Assembly: GCA_030634615.1 (NCBI GenBank)
Contig: DAOWAL010000016.1
Location: forward strand, 1-14,099
Reading direction: 5' to 3'
From: Candidatus Aenigmatarchaeota archaeon
GTDB lineage: Archaea > Aenigmatarchaeota > Aenigmatarchaeia > QMZP01 > QMZT01
Length of the DNA stretch: 14,099 bases
The notes beneath the pieces were generated by a model. It did no database searches and was not told the origin of the DNA. It saw only the letters and a program-made list of their open reading frames with translations. Below, one piece after another: positions 1-14,099 of the stretch. Each line of letters begins with the position of its first letter. The stretch's first letter is position 1. The position numbers and the translations under genes are program-made.

Positions 1-101
1 CCTTGGGCTATAATTTTTGCCAAGGTTAAAACACCTTGCCCGCCATATCCAACTACAATAATATTAAATTCTTTATTTGGTTTTTTATCTAGTCTTTTCA
101 T
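1..101 (-). CDS. 2-oxoacid:ferredoxin oxidoreductase gamma / IorB-like subunit, N-terminal fragment (runs off left edge)
   Basis: Only the first 33 codons are in the window. The protein begins MKRLDKKPNKEFNIIVVGYG and continues GQGVLTLAKIIAQ. The G-x-G-G-Q-G-V-x-T-x-x-K-I pattern is the hallmark N-terminus of the gamma/IorB subunit of 2-oxoacid:ferredoxin oxidoreductases, which convert 2-oxoacids (indolepyruvate for IorAB) to acyl-CoA with ferredoxin. The ATG at 101 lies 4 nt after the stop of the upstream hydrolase gene, so the two are almost certainly co-transcribed. No clear Shine-Dalgarno is visible, which fits translational coupling. Which oxoacid is used cannot be told from this fragment. 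The IorB reading is favoured because the upstream gene ends in a ferredoxin-like tail like that of IorA. Confidence 0.8.
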   Translation of the reverse strand, partial: MKRLDKKPNKEFNIIVVGYGGQGVLTLAKIIAQ

Positions 102-105
102 TTTG

Positions 106-1296
106 TCATTTGTTTAACTCAATGCTATTTGGAAAGAGCTGTCTGCATACAGTACAACCCCAGCATTTATCTTGGTCAATAGAATACTTGCCTTTGTTTT
201 TTGTTATGTGTTCTGCTGAAAGTGCCTGATTTGCAAAGGACATATCCATAACTTCGCTTGGGTGGCCTTCTGCTGCCGCTAAGTTGATGAGTCTTCCTTC
301 ACCGAGAAGGTATATCTTTTTGCCATTTTTGAGTGTGTATTCTTCTACATTGTCTCTTATGACCTTTTTACTCTTTGAAAGTTTCTTTATGTCTGGAATG
401 CTTATTTCAGAATTGAAATGACCAGAGTTTGCAACAACGGCTCCTGATTTCATACTTTTCATATGTTTTCCTGTAATGACGTTTTTATTACCAGTGACAG
501 TTACAAATATATCTCCACTCTTTGCAGCTTCTGACATTGTCGCAACAGAAAATCCGTCCATGATAGCTTCAAGTGCTTTGAGTGAATCGATTTCTGTAAC
601 AGTTACATTTGCACCCATTCCTCTTGCTCTCATGGCAACGCCTTTTCCACACCATCCGTATCCTGCGACAACTAAGTTTTTACCCGATACAAGAACTGAT
701 GTTGCACGGAATATCCCGTCCAAAGTGGATTGTCCTGTTCCGTATCTGTTATCGAAAAGATATTTTGTGTGTGCGTCGTTTATTGCAATTATCGGGTATT
801 CTAAAATACCGTCTTTGAACATTGCTTTGAACCTTATAACGCCGGTCGTGGTTTCTTCGGTTCCTGCTATTATGTTTTTAAGAAGATCTTTTCTTTTTGT
901 GTGTATTCTTGTTACAAGATCTGCTCCGTCATCCATTGTTATGTTTGGTTTCGAATCCAGAACCTTGTCAAGACACCAATAATAATCTTTGTTGTTAACG
1001 CCTCTCCATGCAAAAACTTTGATACCGTCTTTTACAAGGGCGGCTGCGACATCATCCTGAGTACTGAGAGGATTTGATCCGCATAAATATACATCTGCTC
1101 CTCCTGCTTTCAGAGTTCTCATAAGAACACCTGTTTCCTTTGTTACGTGCAGGCAGGCTGCTACTTTGATACCTTTCAAAGGTTTTTCTTTGATAAACCT
1201 TTTTTTAATATCCATTAAAACTGGCATATGATCTTCAGACCACTGAAGTTTCAGTTTTCCTTGACTCGCTAGTTTCAAATCCTTAACTTTACTCAT
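106..1296 (-). CDS. ahcY: S-adenosylhomocysteine hydrolase (adenosylhomocysteinase) with a ferredoxin-like C-terminal tail
   Basis: Cytosolic NAD-dependent enzyme that splits S-adenosylhomocysteine into adenosine and homocysteine, clearing the by-product of SAM methylation. Visible signatures are MDDGAD (121-126), the substrate motif AGTEETTTG (144-152), [20 protein letters not shown] (171-190) with Lys178 and Asp182, the NAD-binding loop [10 protein letters not shown] (212-221), NSGHFNSE (290-297) with His293, and [20 protein letters not shown] (330-349). The N-terminal two thirds are full length. After KNKGK (366-370) the usual C-terminal extension, which reaches the neighbouring subunit's NAD site in known enzymes, is missing. 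In its place are about 25 residues with Cys378, Cys381 and Cys384 in C-x2-C-x2-C spacing, then Phe388-Pro389 where a 4Fe-4S ferredoxin has C-P. The ATG at 1296 has a strong ribosome binding site. The hydrolase assignment is firm; the tail's function is unknown. Confidence 0.95.
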
Positions 1297-1354: not shown

Positions 1355-2374
1355 ATGTCCGGCGAGTCAAATCCGATTGTTGAAGCATTTAACAGAGCGG
1401 AAGCTTACGACTCTCCTGTTAAAGATATTGAATTAATACAGACGCACATATCCTGGGTTTTTTTAACAGGTGATTATGTATACAAAATAAAAAAACCGGT
1501 TGACTTTGGATTCCTCGATTACACATCTCTTGAAAAAAGGAAAAAATTCTGCCAAAAGGAGCTTGAAATAAACAAGATGTTTTCAGAAGATTTGTACATA
1601 GATATTGTTCCGATAAGCAAATTTAACGATTCAATAAAAATAAACGGACCAGGTGAAGTCATAGATTATGCAATAAAGATGAAACAGATGCCTCAGCAAA
1701 ATCTCATGGATAAGTTGCTGGATCTAAATCAAGTTGACACAAAGGCCATGGATAAAATAGTTGACAAACTCATGAGCTTCTATTCAAATACCCAGACATT
1801 CACTGACCCTCATTCAGTAGGGTCGCTTGAAACAGTGAAATTCAACTGGAAAGAAAACTTTACACAGACCCGTGATTTTATAGGAAAGACAATTGATGAA
1901 AAAACATTCGATGAAATAAAATCAAATGTCGATATGTTCATGGAAAAGAACAAGACACTTTTTGACAAGCGTTTACGCGAAGGTAAAATCAAATGGTGCC
2001 ATGGCGATCTCCATTCTGGTAACATTTTCATAACACCTGAAGGAAAGATTTACATTTTCGACGCAATTGAATTCAACGACAGATTTGCATGTTCTGATGT
2101 TGCAAATGATATAGCGTTTCTTTCAATGGATCTTGACTTCCGTCACAGGAAATTCCTTTCAGACTACTTCATAAAAAAATATATAGAAAAAACCGGAGAC
2201 AGCGAGATAATGCAGCTTTTGGATTTTTACAAGTGTTACAGGGCATATGTTCGTGGAAAGGTCATCGGATTCAAAATAAACGATCCAACTGTACCAGAAC
2301 ACGAAAAGAAAGAAGCAAGGGATACTGCGAGTATATACTTTAAGCTTGCGTTAGCTTATTCAAAGAATTTCTAA
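1355..2374 (+). CDS. Aminoglycoside phosphotransferase-like kinase (COG2187 type), stand-alone phosphotransferase domain
   Basis: A 339-residue soluble protein of the protein-kinase-like phosphotransferase fold. The N-terminus carries QTHISWVFLTGDYVYKIKKP (29-48) followed by VDFGFLDY (49-56). This block is characteristic of COG2187 proteins and supplies the ATP-binding lysine (Lys45 or Lys47). The catalytic loop is HGDLHSGN (216-223) with Asp218 and Asn223, and the metal-binding motif is IFDAIEF (234-240) with Asp236. Many family members continue into a second, P-loop kinase domain. Here the protein ends soon after the phosphotransferase domain, so only that half is present. The substrate is unknown; a small molecule is likely, and drug resistance is not implied. 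No convincing Shine-Dalgarno precedes the ATG at 1355, and no in-frame start lies further upstream before the divergent gene. The gene ends 13 nt before the 3' end of a convergent tRNA gene. Confidence 0.85.
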   Translation: MSGESNPIVEAFNRAEAYDSPVKDIELIQTHISWVFLTGDYVYKIKKPVDFGFLDYTSLEKRKKFCQKELEINKMFSEDLYIDIVPISKFNDSIKINGPGEVIDYAIKMKQMPQQNLMDKLLDLNQVDTKAMDKIVDKLMSFYSNTQTFTDPHSVGSLETVKFNWKENFTQTRDFIGKTIDEKTFDEIKSNVDMFMEKNKTLFDKRLREGKIKWCHGDLHSGNIFITPEGKIYIFDAIEFNDRFACSDVANDIAFLSMDLDFRHRKFLSDYFIKKYIEKTGDSEIMQLLDFYKCYRAYVRGKVIGFKINDPTVPEHEKKEARDTASIYFKLALAYSKNF

Positions 2375-3326: not shown

Positions 3327-4076
3327 TTACTCCTCCACTCTAGGTGCAAGAATGAAAGAAAGATTAATCTTGTCTATATCCTTAAATACCATTTTCATTG
3401 GATAATCGTTTGCAAATTCCACTGAAACCTTTTCTGAGAATTTAGACGCCTTTATCATCTTTTTAAGGTATTCCAAAGGATATCTTGCTCTCACAGCTTC
3501 TGATGCTTCCAAGCTTGTAAGACCTGTTTCACCTTTTTTCAATTCAAGCTGGGATGAGCTTACGTCACCCTTTGCCCACAATTTAAAGAGTTCGGGGTTT
3601 GTTTCCATGACAACGGAATCGTCGACAATGTCGGCATCGGATATTCCCTCTTCTAAAACACTTGCGTCCATTTCAATTTTGCCTTTGAAATTGAGCTGAT
3701 CGAGAGGTGGTTTTTCAGTGTTTATGTTAAGAAGAGGTATTTCGAACTTTCTCTTTCCTTTGCCTTCCATTATTATTTCAAGCATGTTAGATTTATCATC
3801 TTTTTTAAGAGTCACCTTTTCACCCGTTTTGATTCTTTTAATGACTGCTACAAGGTTTGCAAGGTTTAATCCAAGCATGTTCTCCCCTGAAACATCAAAA
3901 TCATTAAAAGCTGATGCAAGGAGCCTGAAATCCACAACTGCAATCATACTCCTGTCCGGTGAAAGTAAAGACAATCCATTTGAATCGACTTTGAATACAC
4001 CCTCATCTATAATCTCTGCTATTATTGGTATCGAATTTTTCAATAAATCCGCATTTTCTAAACTTATATTAAACAT
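3327..4076 (-). CDS. pcn: DNA polymerase sliding clamp (PCNA)
   Basis: A 249-residue protein, the normal length for archaeal/eukaryotic PCNA, which forms a trimeric ring on DNA and tethers polymerase, ligase, FEN1 and other partners. Visible signatures are AEIIDEGVFKV (20-30), SPDRSMIAVVDF (39-50), the interdomain connector with EKPPLDQLNFKGKIEM at about 120-136, SDADIVDDSV, the YPLEYLKKMIKASK block of domain 2, and the C-terminus SFILAPRVEE, where partner proteins dock. The start is set by a strong Shine-Dalgarno. It follows the OB-fold gene by 33 nt on the same strand, so the two are likely one transcript linking a single-strand-binding type protein with the clamp. No intein or truncation is seen. 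Confidence 0.96.
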   Translation of the reverse strand: MFNISLENADLLKNSIPIIAEIIDEGVFKVDSNGLSLLSPDRSMIAVVDFRLLASAFNDFDVSGENMLGLNLANLVAVIKRIKTGEKVTLKKDDKSNMLEIIMEGKGKRKFEIPLLNINTEKPPLDQLNFKGKIEMDASVLEEGISDADIVDDSVVMETNPELFKLWAKGDVSSSQLELKKGETGLTSLEASEAVRARYPLEYLKKMIKASKFSEKVSVEFANDYPMKMVFKDIDKINLSFILAPRVEE

Positions 4077-4081
4077 CTAAA

Positions 4082-4088
4082 CACCTCC
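4082..4088 (-). promoter_or_regulatory. Shine-Dalgarno site of PCNA
   Basis: GGAGGTG on the minus strand, 5 nt before the ATG at 4076. A strong ribosome site on the second gene, with an apparently leaderless first gene, is the usual archaeal operon pattern. Confidence 0.75.
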
Positions 4089-4109
4089 GATCAAATCTCT
4101 TCCTAAATA

Positions 4110-4442
4110 TTATTTCTTCTCCAATTCGCTGACTTTCTTGTACAGTTCCATATCAGCGTTAGTCATATCCTGAAGTATTTCGCCCTGCATTTCAAATCCG
4201 TCTTCAGTTGGCATAGCCTGACCAAAAACCCGTACTCTGCTGTTAACTTCAGCTTGCACAGGTTCAGCAAAGACAACATTTATTTTTCCAGTTCCGTCGT
4301 CAATTACCACAACATTGTCTTTTTTGTCTATGACAAGACCAACAATTCTTAACCTGACATCGTTTTTTTCGATTTCAGATATTTTTTTCTCTATTGATGC
4401 CTGCCTTCTTTGTGGTGTGCTTGCTTCAGGAGTTTCTGACAT
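4110..4442 (-). CDS. RPA-like OB-fold nucleic-acid-binding protein
   Basis: A 110-residue soluble protein. Residues 1-15 are a polar tail. An OB-fold follows with RLRIVGLVID (31-40), the signature VIDDGTGKINVVF (46-58), and SRVRVFGQA in the later strands. The last ~25 residues (ADMELYKKVSELEKK) form a charged helix. The DDGTG-hydrophobic block is typical of single-strand-binding RPA/OB proteins and of small RPA subunits. A role in DNA replication or repair is inferred from this fold and from its place directly upstream of PCNA. It is too short to be a full multi-OB RPA, so it may be a partner subunit. An RNA-binding or tRNA-related OB protein is the main alternative. Confidence 0.7.
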   Translation of the reverse strand: MSETPEASTPQRRQASIEKKISEIEKNDVRLRIVGLVIDKKDNVVVIDDGTGKINVVFAEPVQAEVNSRVRVFGQAMPTEDGFEMQGEILQDMTNADMELYKKVSELEKK

Positions 4443-4493: not shown

Positions 4494-5834
4494 TCAGACC
4501 AAAATTACTCCCTGCTGTATATTGCAGTTCTCAGAATCCTCATAGTAATTGAGATTGTACGTAACCATCTCACCCAATACACCGGGATCAACCTCTATCT
4601 TATATTTCAATCCGTCAACAGGATCGCTTTCAGCGCATAAGAAATCTGAGAATGAATATGTATCGCCCCCGAGACCTTCGAGATAAACCACGTTTTCGCA
4701 TCCCGGGCTTTTCACAGTTATGTAATCTATGCCGAACCTTCCAATGTTTTCATGGGCAATCCTTATTTCCCCATCTCCGCATATGTTGGAGTTGTCCCTC
4801 AACAGATAATCATCGGAATAAAACCTGATCTCAGATCTTTTTGGTGTGTTCCCGGGGTTCACATAATCCTGCATTTCCTCCAGCTTTTTCCAGCAGTTCT
4901 TGAAGTCCCTCTTTTCAAGGCAGTCCAATAATCTGAATTTCTGAGCTATCAGGAAATTGGGGTTGAGGATATGTTCAAAATCATTCTCTATCTTATCGCA
5001 GCTTTCATCTACACCGCTTTTTACTTTGTGGAACATCTGCCCGAGGGTATACCCCTGGCTTATCCTTTGTATTATTTCGTTCACTGACCCGCCGGTGAGA
5101 ATCCCCTGGTAGATGAAATTATCTAGGAGGATTGGGAGCAAGAGATCCCCGGATTCAACGTACGCAGATGCCATTATGCTTGAAGCCTTAAGCAGGTTAA
5201 GCGATCTTCCCGAGATGGTCTCAGCCGGGATGAGCGTTCCTCCAAGAGTGGCTAGCATGCTTTCGTATTCAATCAGTTCCCCGAAATTGACCCCTGATCC
5301 GAGATAAGAGCATATGCCGACGTTGTAAGCGGATTCCTTGGCGAAATACTTCACAGCAGAGAAATCATTTTTTAGCTTGTTTTTCTGCTTCTCGATGCTC
5401 AACATGGTATTTTCCACTAATGGAACTATTCTAAGGTCACCATCATATCTTTCGCTCCCCATGGACTCGTTGGAAAATTTGGTGTAGAAATAAAATACCA
5501 TTTCACATGAGACCGAATCCATCCTCGTAAGATTTATCAAGGGATCCACATCGAAATGGCAGGTGTAAAGATTCTCTGTTCTGTTACACTTGTAAGGGTA
5601 TACATCAACGTAACTTCTCCCGCATTTCAAATCGAGATCAGATTCCATGTCCTTGATACCGCTTCTTATGAGGACTGATATCTGGTTGTCTATGAGCTGA
5701 CAGTCGAGATCTGAATTGATAATCTGGCAGTCGAGTTCGTTGTCTGAAATCTCCAGCACTTTGAATTCCTCCGCTCCAGTGTTAAGGCTAATCAAGAGGA
5801 AGACTGCGACTGTTATCAGTAACACCTTTTTCAT
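4494..5834 (-). CDS. Secreted cysteine-rich protein, unknown function
   Basis: I choose the ATG at 5834 (446 residues). It gives a clean signal peptide, MKKVLLITVAVFLLISLNTG, cut near residue 20. A GTG three codons upstream (5843) is the alternative and would overlap the previous gene by 8 bp. The mature part has 14 cysteines, an even number, which suits disulfides outside the cell. It includes a repeated DCQ-I/L-I unit near residues 32-46. A hydrophobic helical stretch lies in the middle (about residues 175-245, around TLGGTLIPAETISG and LLLPILLDNFIYQG), and the C-terminal part looks beta-rich. There is no C-terminal anchor. It starts one base after the stop of the prepilin-type gene, so the two are surely co-translated and may form a complex. 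No family is recognised. Confidence 0.75.
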   Translation of the reverse strand: MKKVLLITVAVFLLISLNTGAEEFKVLEISDNELDCQIINSDLDCQLIDNQISVLIRSGIKDMESDLDLKCGRSYVDVYPYKCNRTENLYTCHFDVDPLINLTRMDSVSCEMVFYFYTKFSNESMGSERYDGDLRIVPLVENTMLSIEKQKNKLKNDFSAVKYFAKESAYNVGICSYLGSGVNFGELIEYESMLATLGGTLIPAETISGRSLNLLKASSIMASAYVESGDLLLPILLDNFIYQGILTGGSVNEIIQRISQGYTLGQMFHKVKSGVDESCDKIENDFEHILNPNFLIAQKFRLLDCLEKRDFKNCWKKLEEMQDYVNPGNTPKRSEIRFYSDDYLLRDNSNICGDGEIRIAHENIGRFGIDYITVKSPGCENVVYLEGLGGDTYSFSDFLCAESDPVDGLKYKIEVDPGVLGEMVTYNLNYYEDSENCNIQQGVILV

Positions 5835-5835
5835 A

Positions 5836-7641
5836 TCAACCACATGGTATGTTCACAATCTGCTCGCTGGAACTCACGGCCTTGATGCCGCACTTGTTCA
5901 GCGTAGCCTGTATCTTTGAAGTCTCTGTGGACTTTATCGAATCCGCTGTCTGGCCTTCAACAAACGGAACGTAAACATAGAGCTTGTCTTCATCCCCGCT
6001 CGATAGATATTTCGAATCTATGTACCCGACGGTTATTTCATACTCCTTGCTTACAGCAGCTGCGAAAGTGCTGTAAAATCCGGGTTCGATGAAAGCTTCG
6101 GAAGAACCCGTAAATCCATCTGAACCGATATTGTAGAGCATGATCTTCTCCCCGTTGTCATGCTCCAGGTATACCAGCACGAAATAATTGCCCGGGAACA
6201 GGCTTATGGATCTCGGCTGGCTTTCAACCGTGTAATCCTTGTATTCGCCTATGGCCACGCTCTTCCCGCGTTTCAGCGGCACACCGTAAAAGTGAACCGG
6301 GATTTTCTTCCCGCCGCTTTCCATGACAACCGAATAACTTGACATGTCACCTGATTTCACGAGTTTTTTATGTTCTGAATAACCCTGCTTCTGGATCGAA
6401 ACCTCCCCTATCATGCAGGGTATTGGCGAACTGGTGAAACCTGAATAATCCGTCTCACCTATGGAACACCCGCCGAATGTGACAAGCGCGTTGCTCACGG
6501 GCATGCCGTTCTTATCCTTAACATCAACATTCGCGAAGCATTCACTTTCAGTCACGCATTTTTCATGGTATGAACTCCCCTTGCTTTTCCCGAATCCGCA
6601 TCCGGGCTTGTTTTCGTCTATATTGACCATGACCGCGAAATTGAAAATTTCATGCAGAGCATCATCCTTTATCATCACGATTACCGGGTATCTCACTGAA
6701 TAGCGGACGTCCGTGGTTTCTATGCATGCCGAGGAAAACGAAAGGATAGGCTTCGCGTAAAATGCAGAAGGGCTCGGTTTTACAGCCAGGTTTTTGCCGA
6801 GCTCCCAATCTTCGGGATATATGAAAGAAACGTCAATGTCAAGATCGGAAATTCCCAGAACATAGAAAGGATTTTCACCCGAGTTCAATATCTCCTTGTC
6901 ATAAACTATGTGGCTTGCTGTGTATTTGAGCGTGCTTTCAATCGATTCGAGCGTATCTTTGTCAGTCTTGAAAAACGCATTTCCGCATCCTGTTATTAGA
7001 TCCACGGTTGGCATCCACTTCTCTTCCGGGTTGGAAAACAGTATCGTGTTCAGTGTGGCCGATTCGAAAAAATCGGAATTGTCGCTGTTTTTTGTTATAG
7101 TGTCCGATATTTCGATTATTTCCTTGAGCCTTGAGGGGACCATCACACTGTAAGGTTGTGGAACATCAGAACCCTCGAATTTGGTGGGCATTTCAACATC
7201 GAATTTCACACCATTGCTCTGTATGTTAACAGAGATATCCAGTTTATCCAGGTCAAAGCGAACCTCTTTGCCAAAGAAGTCCATTTCACTTTTGAATATC
7301 TTCTCGATCCTGGATTCAATGCCCCTTTCGAGGATGGTTTTTATATTTGGCACTTCGCTCTTGTCACAGTCCTTCCATATGCCTATTTCCTTCACACCGT
7401 AAGTTACTGTGTTCCCTGAAAATTCCCCACCACCGTTTTTGTATATTTCCCTGAGCTCGCTCCTGACCAGGCTGCTTATGGAATTCAACACAGAATCCTT
7501 TACAGTCTTCTTCTCCTCACCGATGCCTGTTATGAGTGGATTGTCACTGTCTGTTACAGCAAGATTGGAAGACACCATGATAACGACAATCGCTATTATT
7601 ATCATGGCAAGAATGACTATGAATTCCATCTGGGCCTTCAT
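5836..7641 (-). CDS. Extracellular protein with prepilin-type (class III) signal peptide and carboxypeptidase-regulatory-like domain
   Basis: I choose the ATG at 7641 (601 residues). It gives MKAQMEFIVILAMIIIAIVV, a prepilin-type N-terminus with a basic-Ala-Gln site before a long hydrophobic helix and a Glu two residues after the Gln, as in archaeal pilin-like proteins cut by a prepilin peptidase. A TTG seven codons upstream (7662) is less likely. The rest is exported. An N-terminal part carries GCGNAFFK and FYVLGISDLDIDVSFIYPE. Then comes a cysteine segment (CGFGKSKGSSYHEKC) and a carboxypeptidase-regulatory-like beta sandwich (NVDVKDKNGMPVSNALVTFG, later IQKQGYSEHKK). The C-terminal domain ends in cysteine (NIPCG). 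At about 600 residues it is far too long to be a simple pilin subunit. It is probably a membrane-tethered surface protein partnered with the next gene. GC content is clearly higher than in the housekeeping genes. Confidence 0.75.
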   Translation of the reverse strand: MKAQMEFIVILAMIIIAIVVIMVSSNLAVTDSDNPLITGIGEEKKTVKDSVLNSISSLVRSELREIYKNGGGEFSGNTVTYGVKEIGIWKDCDKSEVPNIKTILERGIESRIEKIFKSEMDFFGKEVRFDLDKLDISVNIQSNGVKFDVEMPTKFEGSDVPQPYSVMVPSRLKEIIEISDTITKNSDNSDFFESATLNTILFSNPEEKWMPTVDLITGCGNAFFKTDKDTLESIESTLKYTASHIVYDKEILNSGENPFYVLGISDLDIDVSFIYPEDWELGKNLAVKPSPSAFYAKPILSFSSACIETTDVRYSVRYPVIVMIKDDALHEIFNFAVMVNIDENKPGCGFGKSKGSSYHEKCVTESECFANVDVKDKNGMPVSNALVTFGGCSIGETDYSGFTSSPIPCMIGEVSIQKQGYSEHKKLVKSGDMSSYSVVMESGGKKIPVHFYGVPLKRGKSVAIGEYKDYTVESQPRSISLFPGNYFVLVYLEHDNGEKIMLYNIGSDGFTGSSEAFIEPGFYSTFAAAVSKEYEITVGYIDSKYLSSGDEDKLYVYVPFVEGQTADSIKSTETSKIQATLNKCGIKAVSSSEQIVNIPCG

Positions 7642-7670
7642 ATTAATATTTAATTCCCCCAATAATTAAT
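7642..7670. promoter_or_regulatory. 29-bp divergent promoter region
   Basis: The whole gap between two divergent start codons is an AT-rich stretch beginning and ending in ATTAAT, with a C5 run in the middle (7656-7660). An AT box near 7645-7650 lies about 25 nt from the plus-strand ATG at 7671. One near 7663-7668 lies about 24 nt from the minus-strand ATG at 7641. Each box would therefore sit next to the other gene's start, and both messages would be leaderless. Confidence 0.45.
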
Positions 7671-10600
7671 ATGAATACAAAGTTTATTGCCTTTGCTTTA
7701 TTCGCAGTTCTCGCTTCATTATTTTTATCACCTTTGACGACTGCCGAGTACGAAGATCTTATATTTGACAATGGTGGTATATTAACGTCAAAAATAAGCG
7801 AAATCGAACAGACCATAAAAATGTTCGAAGATCGAACAGGAGTGAAGATAAGAATTTATACAGACGATCTAGTTTACGGTGACTATGACGATATCGATAC
7901 CGTCGCCAATAACGCTTACAAGTGGGAAGTTCTTGATATTGGCGGAAAACCTGCCTATAATATTCTCCTTTATTATGCAAAAACATATGAAAAGGGAAAA
8001 TTAGCGTATGTCCATTCACGTTCTTGCGAGGATTTTGTTGAATTCACAGATGAACTGAAGAAAGGCAAAATTAGCGAAGATAAAATAGCAGAAGATATTC
8101 TTGACAAAGTCAACCTTATCATAGCGAAGATAAAGGAGCTGAAAGACGCATACGGGGAAGAATGCGAGAAAGCCTCTGAGCAGGAAGCCGGTATAGAGGT
8201 AGTGAAAGAAAATTCCATATATCTGATAGATAACGAAAATCTGGAGAACGGGGGATGGAAGGATATTCTGAGCCTTTATCCGTTGACAACATATCACGTG
8301 GTCCCGGCAAAGTATCTAAAATCTCAGCTTGATGATGACCAGAAGATGACATTGAGAAAGGGGAAGGTCATCTACAACCCAACTCTCGTTTACCACAAAG
8401 AAGGTGAAAATCTCGATTTGGATTCCATAATGATTTACCTTGATCAACTGATAGGACCCAATCCCGAAGATTTTAATCTTTACATTGTTAACAACGCCCC
8501 CACAAAACTTAACTTAGCACTTCAGAAGTACGGTGCACTTCAGAAGTTTAGTTTTAAAGAAATTGCAATTTTACTCTCTCGGGATTACCCTAGACTTTGG
8601 GGAAAAAAAAGAGGTGGATACGATTCCGTGGTTCTTTCGGAAGATGATTACGCGACAGGGCTCCTGGCAAGCCATTTTGCGTCTTACACCAATTCACCAC
8701 TTGTTTTCTCAGCTGATGATCTCAAAAATTACTATTATGAAAAACTTTATTGTATAGGTAACGTAAAACATAGCGATTGTGACAAAAAATACAGCTTCGT
8801 AAACATAGAAGGCGTTCAGAAATTTCTCAGAAAAACTACAAAAACTGACAAAGTAATACTGGTGAACCCGATAGATATAGAAGACGGATCATGTGAACAG
8901 ATTCCATGGGAAACACAATTCGGCAAACTGGAAAAAAGCCATTGCGGGGATTCGATCATTTCTCCTTTACTCGCGAGCGTCAAGAACGAATTGATAGTTC
9001 CTATAGAAAACGAACCTTTGGATGTGGGAATGTTGCGTGGAATCATGCCTCCAGATTCTAATAAATTTTATGTCGACAAAGACGAGAATTACTATTTCCA
9101 AACGTCTAATTCGATAGAAAAATACAACTTTGAAAAACAAGAGGTTGAATGGGTTCTTAAACTTGATGAAAAGAATTATATATCTTTCATTTCTCCTGAA
9201 GGAAAGACATATATCGCTATGAGATCGACTGGTGATATTTTCGAGATAAAGGGTGATAGATCAGAAAAAATTTGCAGTTTAGGTAAAGATAGTATGTTGG
9301 TTGATTCCCATATAGAACTACCATTAGACTTTGCTGTGGATGATGAAGGAAACATGTACTTTGTCGGTAACAATTATGATTATTCCTACGGTGTATCCGC
9401 TAAACTAGCAGTTTTTGATAAAAACTGTCAACAAATATACGATGATATTATATTTGACGTGGGAAGACTTGAACAACGGTTAGATGAATTCTTTAAAGAA
9501 TATGCTCCATATAAAGAGTTTCATTTAACGTTAAAGGAAATCTACTACAAAGAAATAAAAATTTCCTTTAAACCCGATGGAATTTATTTCATATTACTTT
9601 TTTCTTCCAATCTCGAACTTGGTGAAAATAATGAACAAGATAATTATGTAATAGTTGTTTACAAATACGACAAAGAAAAACACGATCAGGAATGGTTTGA
9701 AAATGAAGATGATTATAAGAAAACTTATAGAATATACACAAATTATAAAAGAAAACCTAAGAATATGCAGATAGGGGAATCTGGAAATTTGTACTTTTTA
9801 AGCGGTCAAAATCTCGTGGAAGTACCCGATAACTTGGAATCCGTGGAATCCAGAGATCTTCTTCCATCAATCGGTTCTATGGGAGCAATGTCATCAAATG
9901 ACGGAAAAATATATTTGTTATATAATGATGTGGTTATAGCAGTTTTTGACGAAGATAAATTAATCAGTGGGGACAAAAAAACACCGGAGAAGCTCATAAA
10001 CCCCTTAGTAGAATGTTATTCCTATAAACTCGGTGCAAATAAAGAAAAGGAAACATTTGAAAACTCCATAAACATGAAGCAGAATTACATAAAGACTACT
10101 TTTGACAAAAAACTCGGAGAAATAGGTGGTGAATATAAATATCTCACGGTCATAGCGAGCCCAAGATCTATACCAATCAGCTCTTATTTCGGTTGTTCTC
10201 TGGGAGATTATTATGGCGGGAACGAGATTAGAATGCCATTTGATAGTAAAATAATTGAGGGAGACGCCACTGGAAGAATTTTCGGAATAACTGTTTCCGA
10301 TGCGTCATCTTACTTTAACAGGATAGCTTCCTTCTCGGAAGGAGATGAAGCATTTGTGCCTTCGGATGGAAAAACCCGAGAATTCGAGAAAATAGGTATA
10401 GTTGCTTATGATTTCGGTAAATATCAGGAATATATACTAGAACTTCGAAAACAACTGAGCGAAAAATACGAGGTTGAATGCTCTGTCGGCTATATACCAT
10501 TCATCGGCAAAGGTTGTGACTGGAACATATACACATCCAGTCTCCGGTATTTTAAAGATAAAGATATTTTCATATACGATGACCACGGTAAAGTGAATTC

Positions 10601-11816
10601 ATTGCTTGCTGTGCCTGTGGATTGGAGACTTGATAATATAAGTTCAACCATAGGTGTGACACAAGCATGTTCTACCGGCGATTATTATGCATCGTATGTC
10701 CAAACCAAGAAACCAAACCTTTTTGCTTCCAATTTCATGAGGATGGGCGGTTTGGGTTATATAGGAGCACCCAGCCTTACCTTACGTTCCGATATCGTAA
10801 AAGTCTTAGCATCCAAACTCATGAGCGGTTATGACCTCGGAAACACCTTAGAATCTACTGTAAATGATCCCAACATTAAAAAAACTCTTGAGTATTTCGG
10901 ATCAATATATTCAATAAAAGACTTAGCTCCAAACCACATGCTTTTCGGTGACCCGACTATAAAGCCGGCTCTCAAGAAGAAGATAAAACTGCATTTCGAC
11001 GTTGTCGAGTCAGAGAAAAGACACGAATGTGAAATGGAAGGAGACGTGAAAGTCTGCAACAGGAGAGCAGCAGTAAAAACAGCGAAAGTCAAGATGTGCG
11101 GAAAGGTGAGGAGCATGAAAGTGGAATCTATAGTATACAAGGGTCAGTATGGAGCACCCGATACTGAGGAGGCCGATGTATATAACCCGCTGTTATCCTT
11201 CTGGAAAAGCCTGAGTGACAAACAGCAGAGCAATATGATGAAGAATTTAGAAAGTCACAACATAAAATATACAAAACTTCGTTTAAACGTGTTAACCGAA
11301 GATGATAAATCTCTTGCTGGAGGAGAATACGACTATGAGGATGGTCTCAATCTAGCTGCTCAGGACCCGGTCTACTGCTGGTGTTTGAACAACATAGATC
11401 AATGTAGAAAGAAGTACGATAAAGAAATCGAAGATAAAAAACCGACCTCCACACCTCCACCGGAACCGGTGGAAGAACCGAAGAAAGAAGAACCGAAGAA
11501 AGAAAGTGTGCACATATGTACAGGTAAGATTGGGGACATAAAATGTGAATGTAGAACTTGTGATAATCCAAAACCCATAAAGAACATAAATGGGCAAGTG
11601 TGGGGTGTAAGCTGTGAAAGGGAGAATCTTAATATAAGATTCACGAAACAGGCATCCGTATGGCATCCTGGTTATGAGATACTGAAAGGTCCAAAAGGGT
11701 ACAAGGATGACTATCTTTGTATAGTTGAATGTAGTGAAGATAATACATGTTCCAGTAAAAACGTGGAATTCGATGCGTATCCAATTTTTGAAGAGTTGGG
11801 GTTTAAGGATGAGTAA
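7671..11816 (+). CDS. Secreted multidomain protein: TPM domain, gingipain-like (C25) caspase-fold peptidase split by a beta-propeller, cysteine-rich tail
   Basis: A 1381-residue exported protein. Residues 1-25 are a signal peptide. Residues 28-165 resemble a TPM domain (FDNGGILTSKI, ANNAYKWEVLDIGGK). Residues 180-460 are Rossmann-like, with YDSVVLSEDDYATGLLASHF (317-336). Residues 463-765 hold about six D/E-x-x-G-x-Y-F beta-propeller blades. Residues 825-1098 match the C25 peptidase core: the GDYYGG block (845-850), GRIFGITVSDASSYFNRI (868-885), YDDHGK (969-974) with His972, TQACSTGD (997-1004) with Cys1000, FMRMGGLGYIGAPSLT (1022-1037) and LFGDPTI (1091-1097). A beta domain, a Pro/Glu/Lys linker (1258-1279) and an eight-cysteine tail (1283-1360) follow. 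The His/Cys dyad is intact, so activity is likely; the substrate is unknown. There is no membrane anchor. The gene overlaps the next one by 8 bp. Confidence 0.85.
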   Translation: MNTKFIAFALFAVLASLFLSPLTTAEYEDLIFDNGGILTSKISEIEQTIKMFEDRTGVKIRIYTDDLVYGDYDDIDTVANNAYKWEVLDIGGKPAYNILLYYAKTYEKGKLAYVHSRSCEDFVEFTDELKKGKISEDKIAEDILDKVNLIIAKIKELKDAYGEECEKASEQEAGIEVVKENSIYLIDNENLENGGWKDILSLYPLTTYHVVPAKYLKSQLDDDQKMTLRKGKVIYNPTLVYHKEGENLDLDSIMIYLDQLIGPNPEDFNLYIVNNAPTKLNLALQKYGALQKFSFKEIAILLSRDYPRLWGKKRGGYDSVVLSEDDYATGLLASHFASYTNSPLVFSADDLKNYYYEKLYCIGNVKHSDCDKKYSFVNIEGVQKFLRKTTKTDKVILVNPIDIEDGSCEQIPWETQFGKLEKSHCGDSIISPLLASVKNELIVPIENEPLDVGMLRGIMPPDSNKFYVDKDENYYFQTSNSIEKYNFEKQEVEWVLKLDEKNYISFISPEGKTYIAMRSTGDIFEIKGDRSEKICSLGKDSMLVDSHIELPLDFAVDDEGNMYFVGNNYDYSYGVSAKLAVFDKNCQQIYDDIIFDVGRLEQRLDEFFKEYAPYKEFHLTLKEIYYKEIKISFKPDGIYFILLFSSNLELGENNEQDNYVIVVYKYDKEKHDQEWFENEDDYKKTYRIYTNYKRKPKNMQIGESGNLYFLSGQNLVEVPDNLESVESRDLLPSIGSMGAMSSNDGKIYLLYNDVVIAVFDEDKLISGDKKTPEKLINPLVECYSYKLGANKEKETFENSINMKQNYIKTTFDKKLGEIGGEYKYLTVIASPRSIPISSYFGCSLGDYYGGNEIRMPFDSKIIEGDATGRIFGITVSDASSYFNRIASFSEGDEAFVPSDGKTREFEKIGIVAYDFGKYQEYILELRKQLSEKYEVECSVGYIPFIGKGCDWNIYTSSLRYFKDKDIFIYDDHGKVNSLLAVPVDWRLDNISSTIGVTQACSTGDYYASYVQTKKPNLFASNFMRMGGLGYIGAPSLTLRSDIVKVLASKLMSGYDLGNTLESTVNDPNIKKTLEYFGSIYSIKDLAPNHMLFGDPTIKPALKKKIKLHFDVVESEKRHECEMEGDVKVCNRRAAVKTAKVKMCGKVRSMKVESIVYKGQYGAPDTEEADVYNPLLSFWKSLSDKQQSNMMKNLESHNIKYTKLRLNVLTEDDKSLAGGEYDYEDGLNLAAQDPVYCWCLNNIDQCRKKYDKEIEDKKPTSTPPPEPVEEPKKEEPKKESVHICTGKIGDIKCECRTCDNPKPIKNINGQVWGVSCERENLNIRFTKQASVWHPGYEILKGPKGYKDDYLCIVECSEDNTCSSKNVEFDAYPIFEELGFKDE
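8517..8552 (+). repeat. 18-bp tandem duplication inside the protease gene
   Basis: Two adjacent copies, GCACTTCAGAAGTACGGT and GCACTTCAGAAGTTTAGT, match at 15 of 18 bases and encode ALQKYG followed by ALQKFS (residues 283-294). It looks like a small in-frame duplication that has since diverged. Confidence 0.7.
11472..11501 (+). repeat. 15-bp tandem repeat in the proline-rich linker
   Basis: Two perfect copies of GAAGAACCGAAGAAA encode the EEPKK unit of the linker between the protease part and the cysteine-rich tail. Copy number is likely to vary between strains. Confidence 0.75.
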
Positions 11817-12681
11817 GTTAATGATATTGAGTGTGGCAGTTTTCCTTTCGTTAGTCTTGAGTATGCCCGTCCAATCACTCGAAATTGTAAGTTTCATGGA
11901 AGTGGATGGCGACACATTTTGGCCTTTTGATTCCGTTGATCTGGGAATGGTTATCATAAACGATGAAAGCAGAAGTGTTGTCTTGTTTGTTGAACAATAC
12001 ATAGTTTATCCTAAAACCCCTCCCATGCCCCTTTTAGAGGAGATGACAATAGCAGGAAACGGAGATGAGATGATATCCGACCTGAGCTTTGAAGTTTCTG
12101 AATATTCTGAAGCAGGCGAATACGATCATGTTGTGAGAGTCTACGAAGACGACGAAATGGTTCTGGAAAAAACGAGCACTTTCTACATTTACGGGACAAC
12201 TGGAAAACTGGAAGGTTTCACGTCAACAATCTGCGCTGACCACGGATGTACAGACGTGAGACCTGTTTTCGAGCTAGGGGAAACAGCTTATATATTCGTT
12301 GAATGCCCGAATATCCCTCAAGTAAGCGGGTATGTGGACTACCCTGACGGTAGTTCAGAACACCTTGTTTTTTCAGGAGATGTTGCGAAACTGAAACCAG
12401 TTTTGGGAGGAGTATATACTGCCAATATAATCCTTTCAAAGGAAGGATTCACTGATGAAGTGATTGAAAAGGAAATAACATTCGAGGAAAGTCTTGCACC
12501 ACCTAGTTACTTTTTCTGTAGCGATGTCGAAGATGACATGTGTGATATCCACTGCAAAGAGGGTGAGGATCCTGATTGCATAAGAATGAGAGGAGAATTC
12601 AACTTTTTACTAATAGTTTCAGCAATTATTGTAATTGTCATGTTAGTTATCGGAACACTTCTGTTTAAAATGAGAAACTAG
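11809..12681 (+). CDS. Ig-like surface protein anchored by a C-terminal transmembrane helix
   Basis: I choose the ATG at 11809 (290 residues). It gives the signal peptide MSKLMILSVAVFLSLVLSMP with cleavage near residue 23, and overlaps the protease stop by 8 bp (ATGAGTAA). A start 84 nt upstream would bury this signal peptide. The exported part looks like two beta-sandwich domains of the type that bind or present other proteins. A short cysteine module, C-x7-C-x3-C-x7-C (about residues 237-257, ending EDPDC), comes next; similar D-rich Cys modules are common just before the anchor in archaeal surface proteins. Residues 264-290 form a transmembrane helix with a short basic tail (KMRN). Overlap with the protease gene argues for co-translation, so it could be the protease's membrane receptor, since the protease lacks its own anchor. 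Confidence 0.8.
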   Translation: MSKLMILSVAVFLSLVLSMPVQSLEIVSFMEVDGDTFWPFDSVDLGMVIINDESRSVVLFVEQYIVYPKTPPMPLLEEMTIAGNGDEMISDLSFEVSEYSEAGEYDHVVRVYEDDEMVLEKTSTFYIYGTTGKLEGFTSTICADHGCTDVRPVFELGETAYIFVECPNIPQVSGYVDYPDGSSEHLVFSGDVAKLKPVLGGVYTANIILSKEGFTDEVIEKEITFEESLAPPSYFFCSDVEDDMCDIHCKEGEDPDCIRMRGEFNFLLIVSAIIVIVMLVIGTLLFKMRN

Positions 12682-12707: not shown

Positions 12708-12762
12708 CGCTGGATAATTAAATTATATAAGATGGGGTTTTGCTCTTTTGGCAGTTTTATTG

Positions 12763-14099
12763 ATGGTTTTACCTTCTGTAAGTGCTTTGGATGCAGACAG
12801 CATATTTTCAGTAGAGCCTGGAGGCAGCTACAAGTGTATTTATGTAAATCTTCCCCAGGATCTCGGTCTTAGTTCTCTGGACAGCACTACAGAAACTGTT
12901 ATAGAAATTGACAAGGTGCAAAGCCCATGGGCTGACATGACGTACAACAAAGTTGTCCTTGAACCCGGTGTTATGAACAAGAATCCTGTATGTTTTTACT
13001 ATTCCGGGAAAGAAGAAGGAGAGTTTTCATTTTACAACATAAAGATGTCTTCTCTGAGTCTTGGCATATCCAATTCCATCTCAGGGGGCCTCTGCGTTTC
13101 TGATTACGAAGACGTCGACGTCGGAGTGGATGTGGGGGAAGGCACTGACATCTGCGCAATGCTAAATCAAAACGCGGACATAATAGACCTCAGTTTCAAA
13201 GAGGACATCACGCAGGCCAAGCCCGGTGACATAGTTGAAAAAACGCTTTACATAACGTCCTATGCGAACCTCAACATACGATTATCGATTGCGACCAGCC
13301 TTCAGGAGGATTTTGGAGATCCAGTTGTAAAAACATCACCTTCCAACCCGATGGTGAAAAAGACCTTCAAGGTCAAGGCCCCTGAGAGGGATGGCGAATT
13401 TGAAATGACAATAATGGCGCAGGCTGAGGGATGTAATCTGTATGCGTGCAAGAAGCAGAAAAAAACCACACTGTCAGTTACAGAGAAGGGGAAGGAAGGC
13501 TTCACGGTTTCTGCTATCCCCAAAAACATAAACCTTAAGGATCCTGAAGAGACCATCCTAAGAGTCATAATTTCCAATTACGAGGAATCCCAGGAATTCA
13601 CAATAGAAGCCTCTTCCGACCCTGTCACAGACATAGAACCGGAAACAAAAACCGTTGAGGTCGACAAGGACGAGGAAATAACAACCGTGTTCAAAGTCAT
13701 GCCCAGAGAGGACGACCTTTACAAAATAAATTTCAAAATCACGACCGGCAAGTCAGAGAAACTCCTCACCACTTACATATCATTAGGTGAACTCTTAACC
13801 GATGCATACAGGCATTCCGAGGATGTTGAGAGGGATTCCGAGCCTAGCCTGAGAGATCAGATAATAGCGGCGCGGGATCAATTCGAAAGCAGTTACGATG
13901 ACAGTGAATACGGCGAAGAATTCGATGAATACGAAGATTTCAGAAACACACTTGATGATCTAAAACAAACTTCTGAGAATAAGCCTGAAGATAAACCTAA
14001 ACCTGAACCAAAAGAAGAGCCTGGTTTTAACTGGTTTATTGTTATCATACCTATTGTAATAGTTGTAGCTGTTTTGGTCTTTGTGGCATACAAAAAAGC
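12763..14099 (+). CDS. Ig-like (NEW3-type) surface protein with C-terminal transmembrane anchor, 3' end cut by the window; start uncertain
   Basis: The open frame runs from after a TAA at 12715 to the window edge. The first ATG is 12763, but it lies inside what looks like a signal peptide: reading from the ATA at 12727 gives IRWGFALLAVLLMVLPSVSA, a textbook export signal. TTG codons at 12748 and 12760 are other options. After the signal come beta-sandwich domains resembling NEW3/Ig-like repeats (ITQAKPGDIVEKTLYITSYA; later NINLKDPEETILRVIISNYE), with paired cysteines. A charged helical segment follows (SLRDQIIAARDQFESSYDD), then a Pro/Lys/Glu stalk (KPEDKPKPEPKEEPG) and a transmembrane helix (14026-14087) with AYKK at the edge. 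It is therefore nearly complete. GC is high, like the 4494-7641 genes. It probably belongs to the same surface cluster. Confidence 0.8.
   Translation, partial: MVLPSVSALDADSIFSVEPGGSYKCIYVNLPQDLGLSSLDSTTETVIEIDKVQSPWADMTYNKVVLEPGVMNKNPVCFYYSGKEEGEFSFYNIKMSSLSLGISNSISGGLCVSDYEDVDVGVDVGEGTDICAMLNQNADIIDLSFKEDITQAKPGDIVEKTLYITSYANLNIRLSIATSLQEDFGDPVVKTSPSNPMVKKTFKVKAPERDGEFEMTIMAQAEGCNLYACKKQKKTTLSVTEKGKEGFTVSAIPKNINLKDPEETILRVIISNYEESQEFTIEASSDPVTDIEPETKTVEVDKDEEITTVFKVMPREDDLYKINFKITTGKSEKLLTTYISLGELLTDAYRHSEDVERDSEPSLRDQIIAARDQFESSYDDSEYGEEFDEYEDFRNTLDDLKQTSENKPEDKPKPEPKEEPGFNWFIVIIPIVIVVAVLVFVAYKK

Follow-up and report, generated by a model that had tools for sequence, protein, structure and literature searches.

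Three kinds of described system stand closest to the locus presented here: the archaeal-type SAH hydrolases of TIGR00936, the IorA proteins of TIGR03336, and the chimeric contig ends of metagenome assemblies, in which one contig carries a short foreign tip and its true continuation terminates a second contig in the bin. The window, i.e., the whole 14,099-nucleotide stretch of DNA analysed here, spans contig C125 in full; the draft genome to which it belongs totals 1.10 Mb in 142 contigs and is 83.5% complete. Residues 1 to 370 encoded by its ahcY frame make a standard archaeal-type SAH hydrolase, but the frame as assembled carries 26 unrelated residues in place of the last 46. These align with IorA at its last ferredoxin motif (many of the 22 IorA C-termini compared read C-W-G-C-x-V-C there) and are directly followed by an iorB-like gene, whereas the rest of IorA is missing and the tail is joined to ahcY. 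As in other chimeric contig ends, the putatively foreign tip is short and the true continuation appears at the end of another contig of the bin; unlike the usual ones, the join keeps the reading frame and so resembles a fusion gene. From sequence comparison we conclude, with a probability of roughly 0.93, that the tail and the iorB start form a chimeric contig tip and that the ahcY-iorA fusion would be an assembly artefact.

The hydrolase part itself is regular: TIGR00936 (ahcY) covers residues 3 to 372 at 587 bits, above the family cut-off of 497.6, and normal SAH hydrolase sequence extends up to Lys370 (codon AAG at 187-189). All eight family relatives are 64 to 76% identical over this part and continue into a normal tail of 46 to 52 residues ending in E-G-T; a C-terminal tail of about 46 residues with this ending is missing from the window frame as assembled. 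Among the listed homologues of 72 to 76% identity that carry an organism name, seven of eight are labelled Aenigmarchaeota or Aenigmatarchaeota and one Undinarchaeales, which makes the former the probable group of the host; the closest intact homologue (P0002) aligns to its last residue with the solved SAH hydrolase 7r39_A. Past Lys370 the frame instead presents Cys378 (163-165), Cys381 (154-156) and Cys384 (145-147), followed by Phe388 (TTT at 133-135) and Pro389, and after its stop codon four bases (102-105) lead to the ATG of the IorB-like gene at 99-101. The initial annotation, which had the hydrolase running normally to residues 366-370, then into a cysteine-bearing tail of about 25 residues with an IorB-like gene four bases on, is borne out by this reading of the frame (Table 1).

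Table 1. Features of the window that bear on the ahcY join.
Feature	Position	Strand	Details and basis
Open reading frame	106-1296	(-)	396 aa; stop TGA at 106-108
Genuine ahcY (SAH hydrolase) 5' part, codons 1-370 plus base 1 of codon 371	186..1296	(-)	TIGR00936, relatives, P0001
Junction zone: Gly-Lys bases plus the initial base of the following codon, which is aromatic in both parents; either parent possible	179..195	(-)	P0001 and IorA C-termini
Putative foreign segment 1: iorA 3' end (26 residues plus stop)	106..185	(-)	Matches ends of 491-653-aa frames in the phylum
Putative foreign segment 2: codons 1-33 of an iorB-like gene that runs off the contig start	1..101	(-)	NCBIfam IorB models below cut-off; iorB starts elsewhere
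APH-like phosphotransferase gene	1355..2374	(+)	Flanks ahcY on the intact side; conserved neighbour

The lost ahcY ending is observed directly elsewhere in the same assembly. When a composite tail was searched against the organism's own genome, two matches were returned, the window up to the junction and C139:5303-5425(-) (E 4.3e-16). C139 is a contig of 5,427 bases whose end, read on the minus strand, consists of two leftover bases and then FKVPDKLDLKIAELKLKSLNVKIDKLTPEQKKYLSGWTEGT-stop, and these 41 ahcY residues with their stop codon occupy the last 128 bases of the contig; this is an ordinary ahcY ending, cut by the contig end. Searching with the full window protein, we found a single ahcY match in the draft genome. 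The database protein P0001, encoded on a 20,084-base contig other than C125, matches the window residue for residue up to position 370, continues for five codons like a normal tail (FEIGV), and then departs from normal sequence with QST after residue 375 (residues 371-378 FEIGVQST), at the very codon where C139 begins. The arithmetic, likewise a direct observation, gives 370 residues from the window, five from P0001 and 41 from C139, i.e., 416, which is the usual size of the archaeal-type enzyme and that of 77 of the 120 listed homologues. By comparison with P0001, about 12 bases between the two ahcY parts are missing from both contigs; the true continuation is found on another contig of the assembly, which ends inside ahcY about 12 bases past the point where the window departs. 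The two contigs have no 9-mer in common in the 260-base ends that were compared, and since they share no overlap their join rests on the relatives and on P0001.

Gene order, also observed directly, places the same two contigs side by side. The ends of ahcY and of a convergent gene for an ArsA-family ATPase (PF02374, E 1e-105) overlap by four bases on C139, and an arsA-type gene was matched in the fetched loci of six of the eight relatives. It directly abuts ahcY in three, the gap being 10 bases in G005, 8 in G001 and 5 in G006; in G007 and G004 the match lies farther from ahcY, and G008 has a short, weak one only (39 residues, E 2e-5). No arsA match came from G002 or G003, whose loci include less than 1.5 kb on that side. 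On the side opposite arsA, an APH-like gene sits beside ahcY in the loci of four of the eight relatives, and one of the four that lack this neighbour (G005) has a locus that ends just past ahcY. Placing C139 before C125 thus restores the gene order of the relatives, because arsA then stands on one side of ahcY and the APH-like gene on the other. A deletion or recombination joining ahcY to iorA had been the simplest explanation in the initial annotation, with an assembly error as its main alternative; the genuine ahcY tail at the end of C139, where gene order predicts it, tells against the former and makes the latter the better reading.

Several observations concern other genes of the window. 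For the APH-like gene the family matches are all weak, APH itself staying below cut-off (E 1.7e-4). At 3327-4442 a PCNA gene adjoins a small gene on the same strand, the latter with weak OB-fold and RPA-like matches below cut-off; a 1,381-residue protein encoded at 7671-11816 has a sub-threshold TPM-domain match near its start only (E 0.0029); and the open reading frames at 5836-7662, 4494-5843, 11725-12681 and 12748-14097 match no Pfam family at E 0.01.

The identity of the tip as IorA and IorB sequence is read directly from other genomes of the phylum. Against family models the tail gives sub-threshold matches only (Fer4_7, E 0.023; NF058577, E 0.00072). In a search of 156 genomes of the phylum, its best foreign matches are the C-terminal ends of IorA-length frames (about 490 to 653 residues), the best of them, in one genome, at E 5.9e-7, a likeness at the ends of such frames that is more than chance would give. 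The 33 visible residues of the following gene match IorB models far below their cut-offs (best E 6.6e-5) and match no Pfam family, and the beginning of that gene matches iorB starts in 15 further genomes of the phylum, with 83% identity over 23 aa to G142 and 79% over 24 aa to G052. In G142, G052, G022, G134, G053 and others both matches fall at one locus, the iorA end just before the iorB start, an order read out directly in three of these; it is because of this co-location in several genomes that bases 1-185 are assigned to an iorA end and its iorB start. The tail is, as judged from these alignments, an IorA C-terminus followed by its own iorB, as had been proposed from its resemblance to the ferredoxin end of IorA ahead of iorB. 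The IorA catalytic body is a different matter: no TIGR03336 body match was found in the window.

The phenylalanine in place of a fourth cysteine, one base away (TTT versus TGT), had been taken for a sign of decay, and here the IorA C-termini point elsewhere. In eight-iron ferredoxins, one cluster is bound by cysteines one to three together with the last, and the other by cysteines four to seven. Our comparison set of 22 C-termini (20 within L160-L187, together with L010 and L099) comprises 20 hand-picked sequences, the genome's own C98 and G001; the 20 are tail matches for which a locus was fetched and whose frame is 491 to 653 residues long, G030 being excluded for want of a locus. In this set, which is not an unbiased sample, the first CxxCxxC and the last cysteine are both present in seven sequences and both absent in ten, while five lack the first motif and have a cysteine at or near the last position. 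All ten sequences without either feature keep Cys-Pro-Ala before the second motif, and the IorA of G135 reads Phe-Pro at exactly the window's position. Since these ten have lost one cluster motif and kept the other, a three-cysteine tail without the fourth would be the normal end of such a protein; a decaying IorA remnant is rejected, given that 10 of 22 C-termini lack the same cysteine and that G135 has the same Phe-Pro. We infer that the donor IorA was of this one-cluster-motif type, the donor's upstream sequence lying outside the window. Within the phylum, IorA has repeatedly lost the first ferredoxin CxxCxxC: 10 of the 22 examined C-termini are without both it and the last cysteine, and 5 more are without that motif only. 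At the level of sequence this looks as if one of two iron-sulphur clusters had been lost from the oxidoreductase in a coordinated way.

Where the tip came from was approached through the organism's own genome. Its sole strong IorA match lies on C98 and ends in HVKIRQDLCWGCGLCVQVAKPGAIIPSRRKKK, and the C98 iorB start differs as well (45% identity to the window's over 22 aa); the genome's own visible iorA is therefore rejected as the source of the tail. A search of the genome for an intact iorA, which the initial annotation had called for, thus does recover an IorA body on C98, but one whose C-terminus is unlike the tail. For this C98 fragment no solved chain was matched at E 0.001. IorB models match only C98 and C26 in the genome at E 0.001, a search that did not report the window's own 33-residue fragment and that equally short pieces elsewhere would also escape, and the IorA and IorB searches together returned no other piece of the tip's operon at that threshold. 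At the DNA level, bases 1-190 match nothing else strongly in the genome, the next best hit standing at E 0.002. Among the eight family relatives none matches the iorB start at E 0.01, and their IorB-model matches lie on contigs other than that of ahcY. The same segment could instead derive from a second iorAB operon elsewhere in the organism, misjoined within one genome, a version of the chimeric tip that we regard as unlikely: the genome is only about 83% complete, and the GC content of bases 1-178 (0.343) is near that of the neighbouring ahcY (0.389) and of C139 (0.362), but the searches at E 0.001 gave no further piece of such an operon, nor is the iorB start matched in the relatives. Even a misjoin of this kind would leave the fusion an artefact. 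The lack of a second strong match and of any other operon part favours another organism as the source, and the donor was most likely another archaeon in the sample. A DNA search of the 156 genomes for this donor gave, besides the window, only short matches of at most 41 bits; a search of the protein database gave no candidate, a result that, with no positive control and a suspect query form, is no evidence of absence, and IorB relatives clearly exist in the phylum, as the iorB-start search shows, despite that empty result.

The position and the sequence of the join suggest how it may have formed. It lies about 185 bases from the end of C125, and we propose that the assembly departed from ahcY near codon 370 and continued into about 185 bases of an ordinary iorA-iorB junction from elsewhere, the real ahcY being split, with its 3' end on C139 and about 12 bases in neither contig. 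At the junction P0001 reads K-F-E-I-G-V and the window K-Y-S-I, and in several IorA C-termini G-K-Y or G-K-F stands in register with this, equally far ahead of the cysteine motif. Both parents were probably Gly-Lys-aromatic at this point (K-G-K-F in the ahcY of P0001, G-K-Y or G-K-F in the IorA relatives), and a short identical stretch of this kind could have carried the assembler, or a chimera formed in the library, over into the second gene without loss of frame. The join would thus have arisen in assembly or library preparation, helped by the short shared stretch.

Several observations count against an artefact. The junction is in frame; P0001 also leaves normal sequence, five codons later than the window; C125 and C139 share no overlap; the donor was not recovered in the searches above; and arsA does not abut ahcY in three of the six relatives with an arsA match and was not matched in the loci of the other two. 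A site broken in two ways, after residue 370 in the window and after 375 in P0001, would also fit real variation, such as a recombination in part of the population in which cells with and without an in-frame ahcY-iorA join coexist. Such a history would account for one ahcY 5' part with two 3' continuations in the assembly, as a strain mixture likewise would, for the open frame across the junction, and for P0001 as a third end, and the departures after codons 370 and 375 could mark a recombination or insertion hot spot. We consider it highly improbable nonetheless, as no more than about 185 bases separate the join from a contig end, no further part of the supposed iorAB locus turned up in the genome, the relatives neither match the iorB start nor carry IorB-model matches on their ahcY contigs, and the protein would lose a 46-residue tail that its closest relatives carry. 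With P0001 breaking at the first codon of C139, the site appears to be disrupted in two or more assemblies or clones, and under the preferred reading of a chimeric tip we take it as a fragile spot in assemblies.

A fixed functional variant of ahcY, with an iron-sulphur tail conserved in the lineage, would predict that other genomes have the same junction. We compared 89 loci, one SAH hydrolase frame each, from the window, the eight family relatives and 80 drawn from named genomes: a CxxCxxC after the family part occurs in the window only (0 of the 88 others), and none of the 120 listed proteins, of 8,000 scored candidates, has one in its last 70 residues, so that no junction common to relatives, as expected of a genuine fusion, was seen in either set. 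The open frame and the well-formed CxxCxxC speak for such a variant; against it stand its absence from these loci and proteins, the normal tails of all eight relatives and the normal tail in the organism's own assembly, which together make it exceedingly improbable.

The functional consequence first suggested for the fusion was the loss of a tail that completes the NAD site of the neighbouring subunit. According to published work, archaeal structures have a shortened C-terminus and are missing the hydrogen bonds by which Lys and Tyr contact the NAD of the neighbour (PMC10978960), and archaeal-type enzymes lack the last 8 to 11 residues (PMC7765604). A lost cross-subunit NAD contact is rejected for archaeal-type enzymes on the strength of these statements, and since such enzymes lack those contacts, a real truncation would not act via the neighbour's NAD. 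The C-terminal domain would nonetheless be shortened by its last 46 residues.

Read literally, the contig would point to a novel, redox-linked SAH hydrolase; under the chimeric-tip reading, the archaeal SAH hydrolase actually encoded would be an ordinary one of 416 residues. A misjoin close to a contig end, if it preserves the frame, can thus mimic a gene fusion, and seeking the lost tail at other contig ends of the same bin settles most of the question of whether a fusion exists. If the join were real, it would offer a natural test of how much of its tail an archaeal SAH hydrolase needs.
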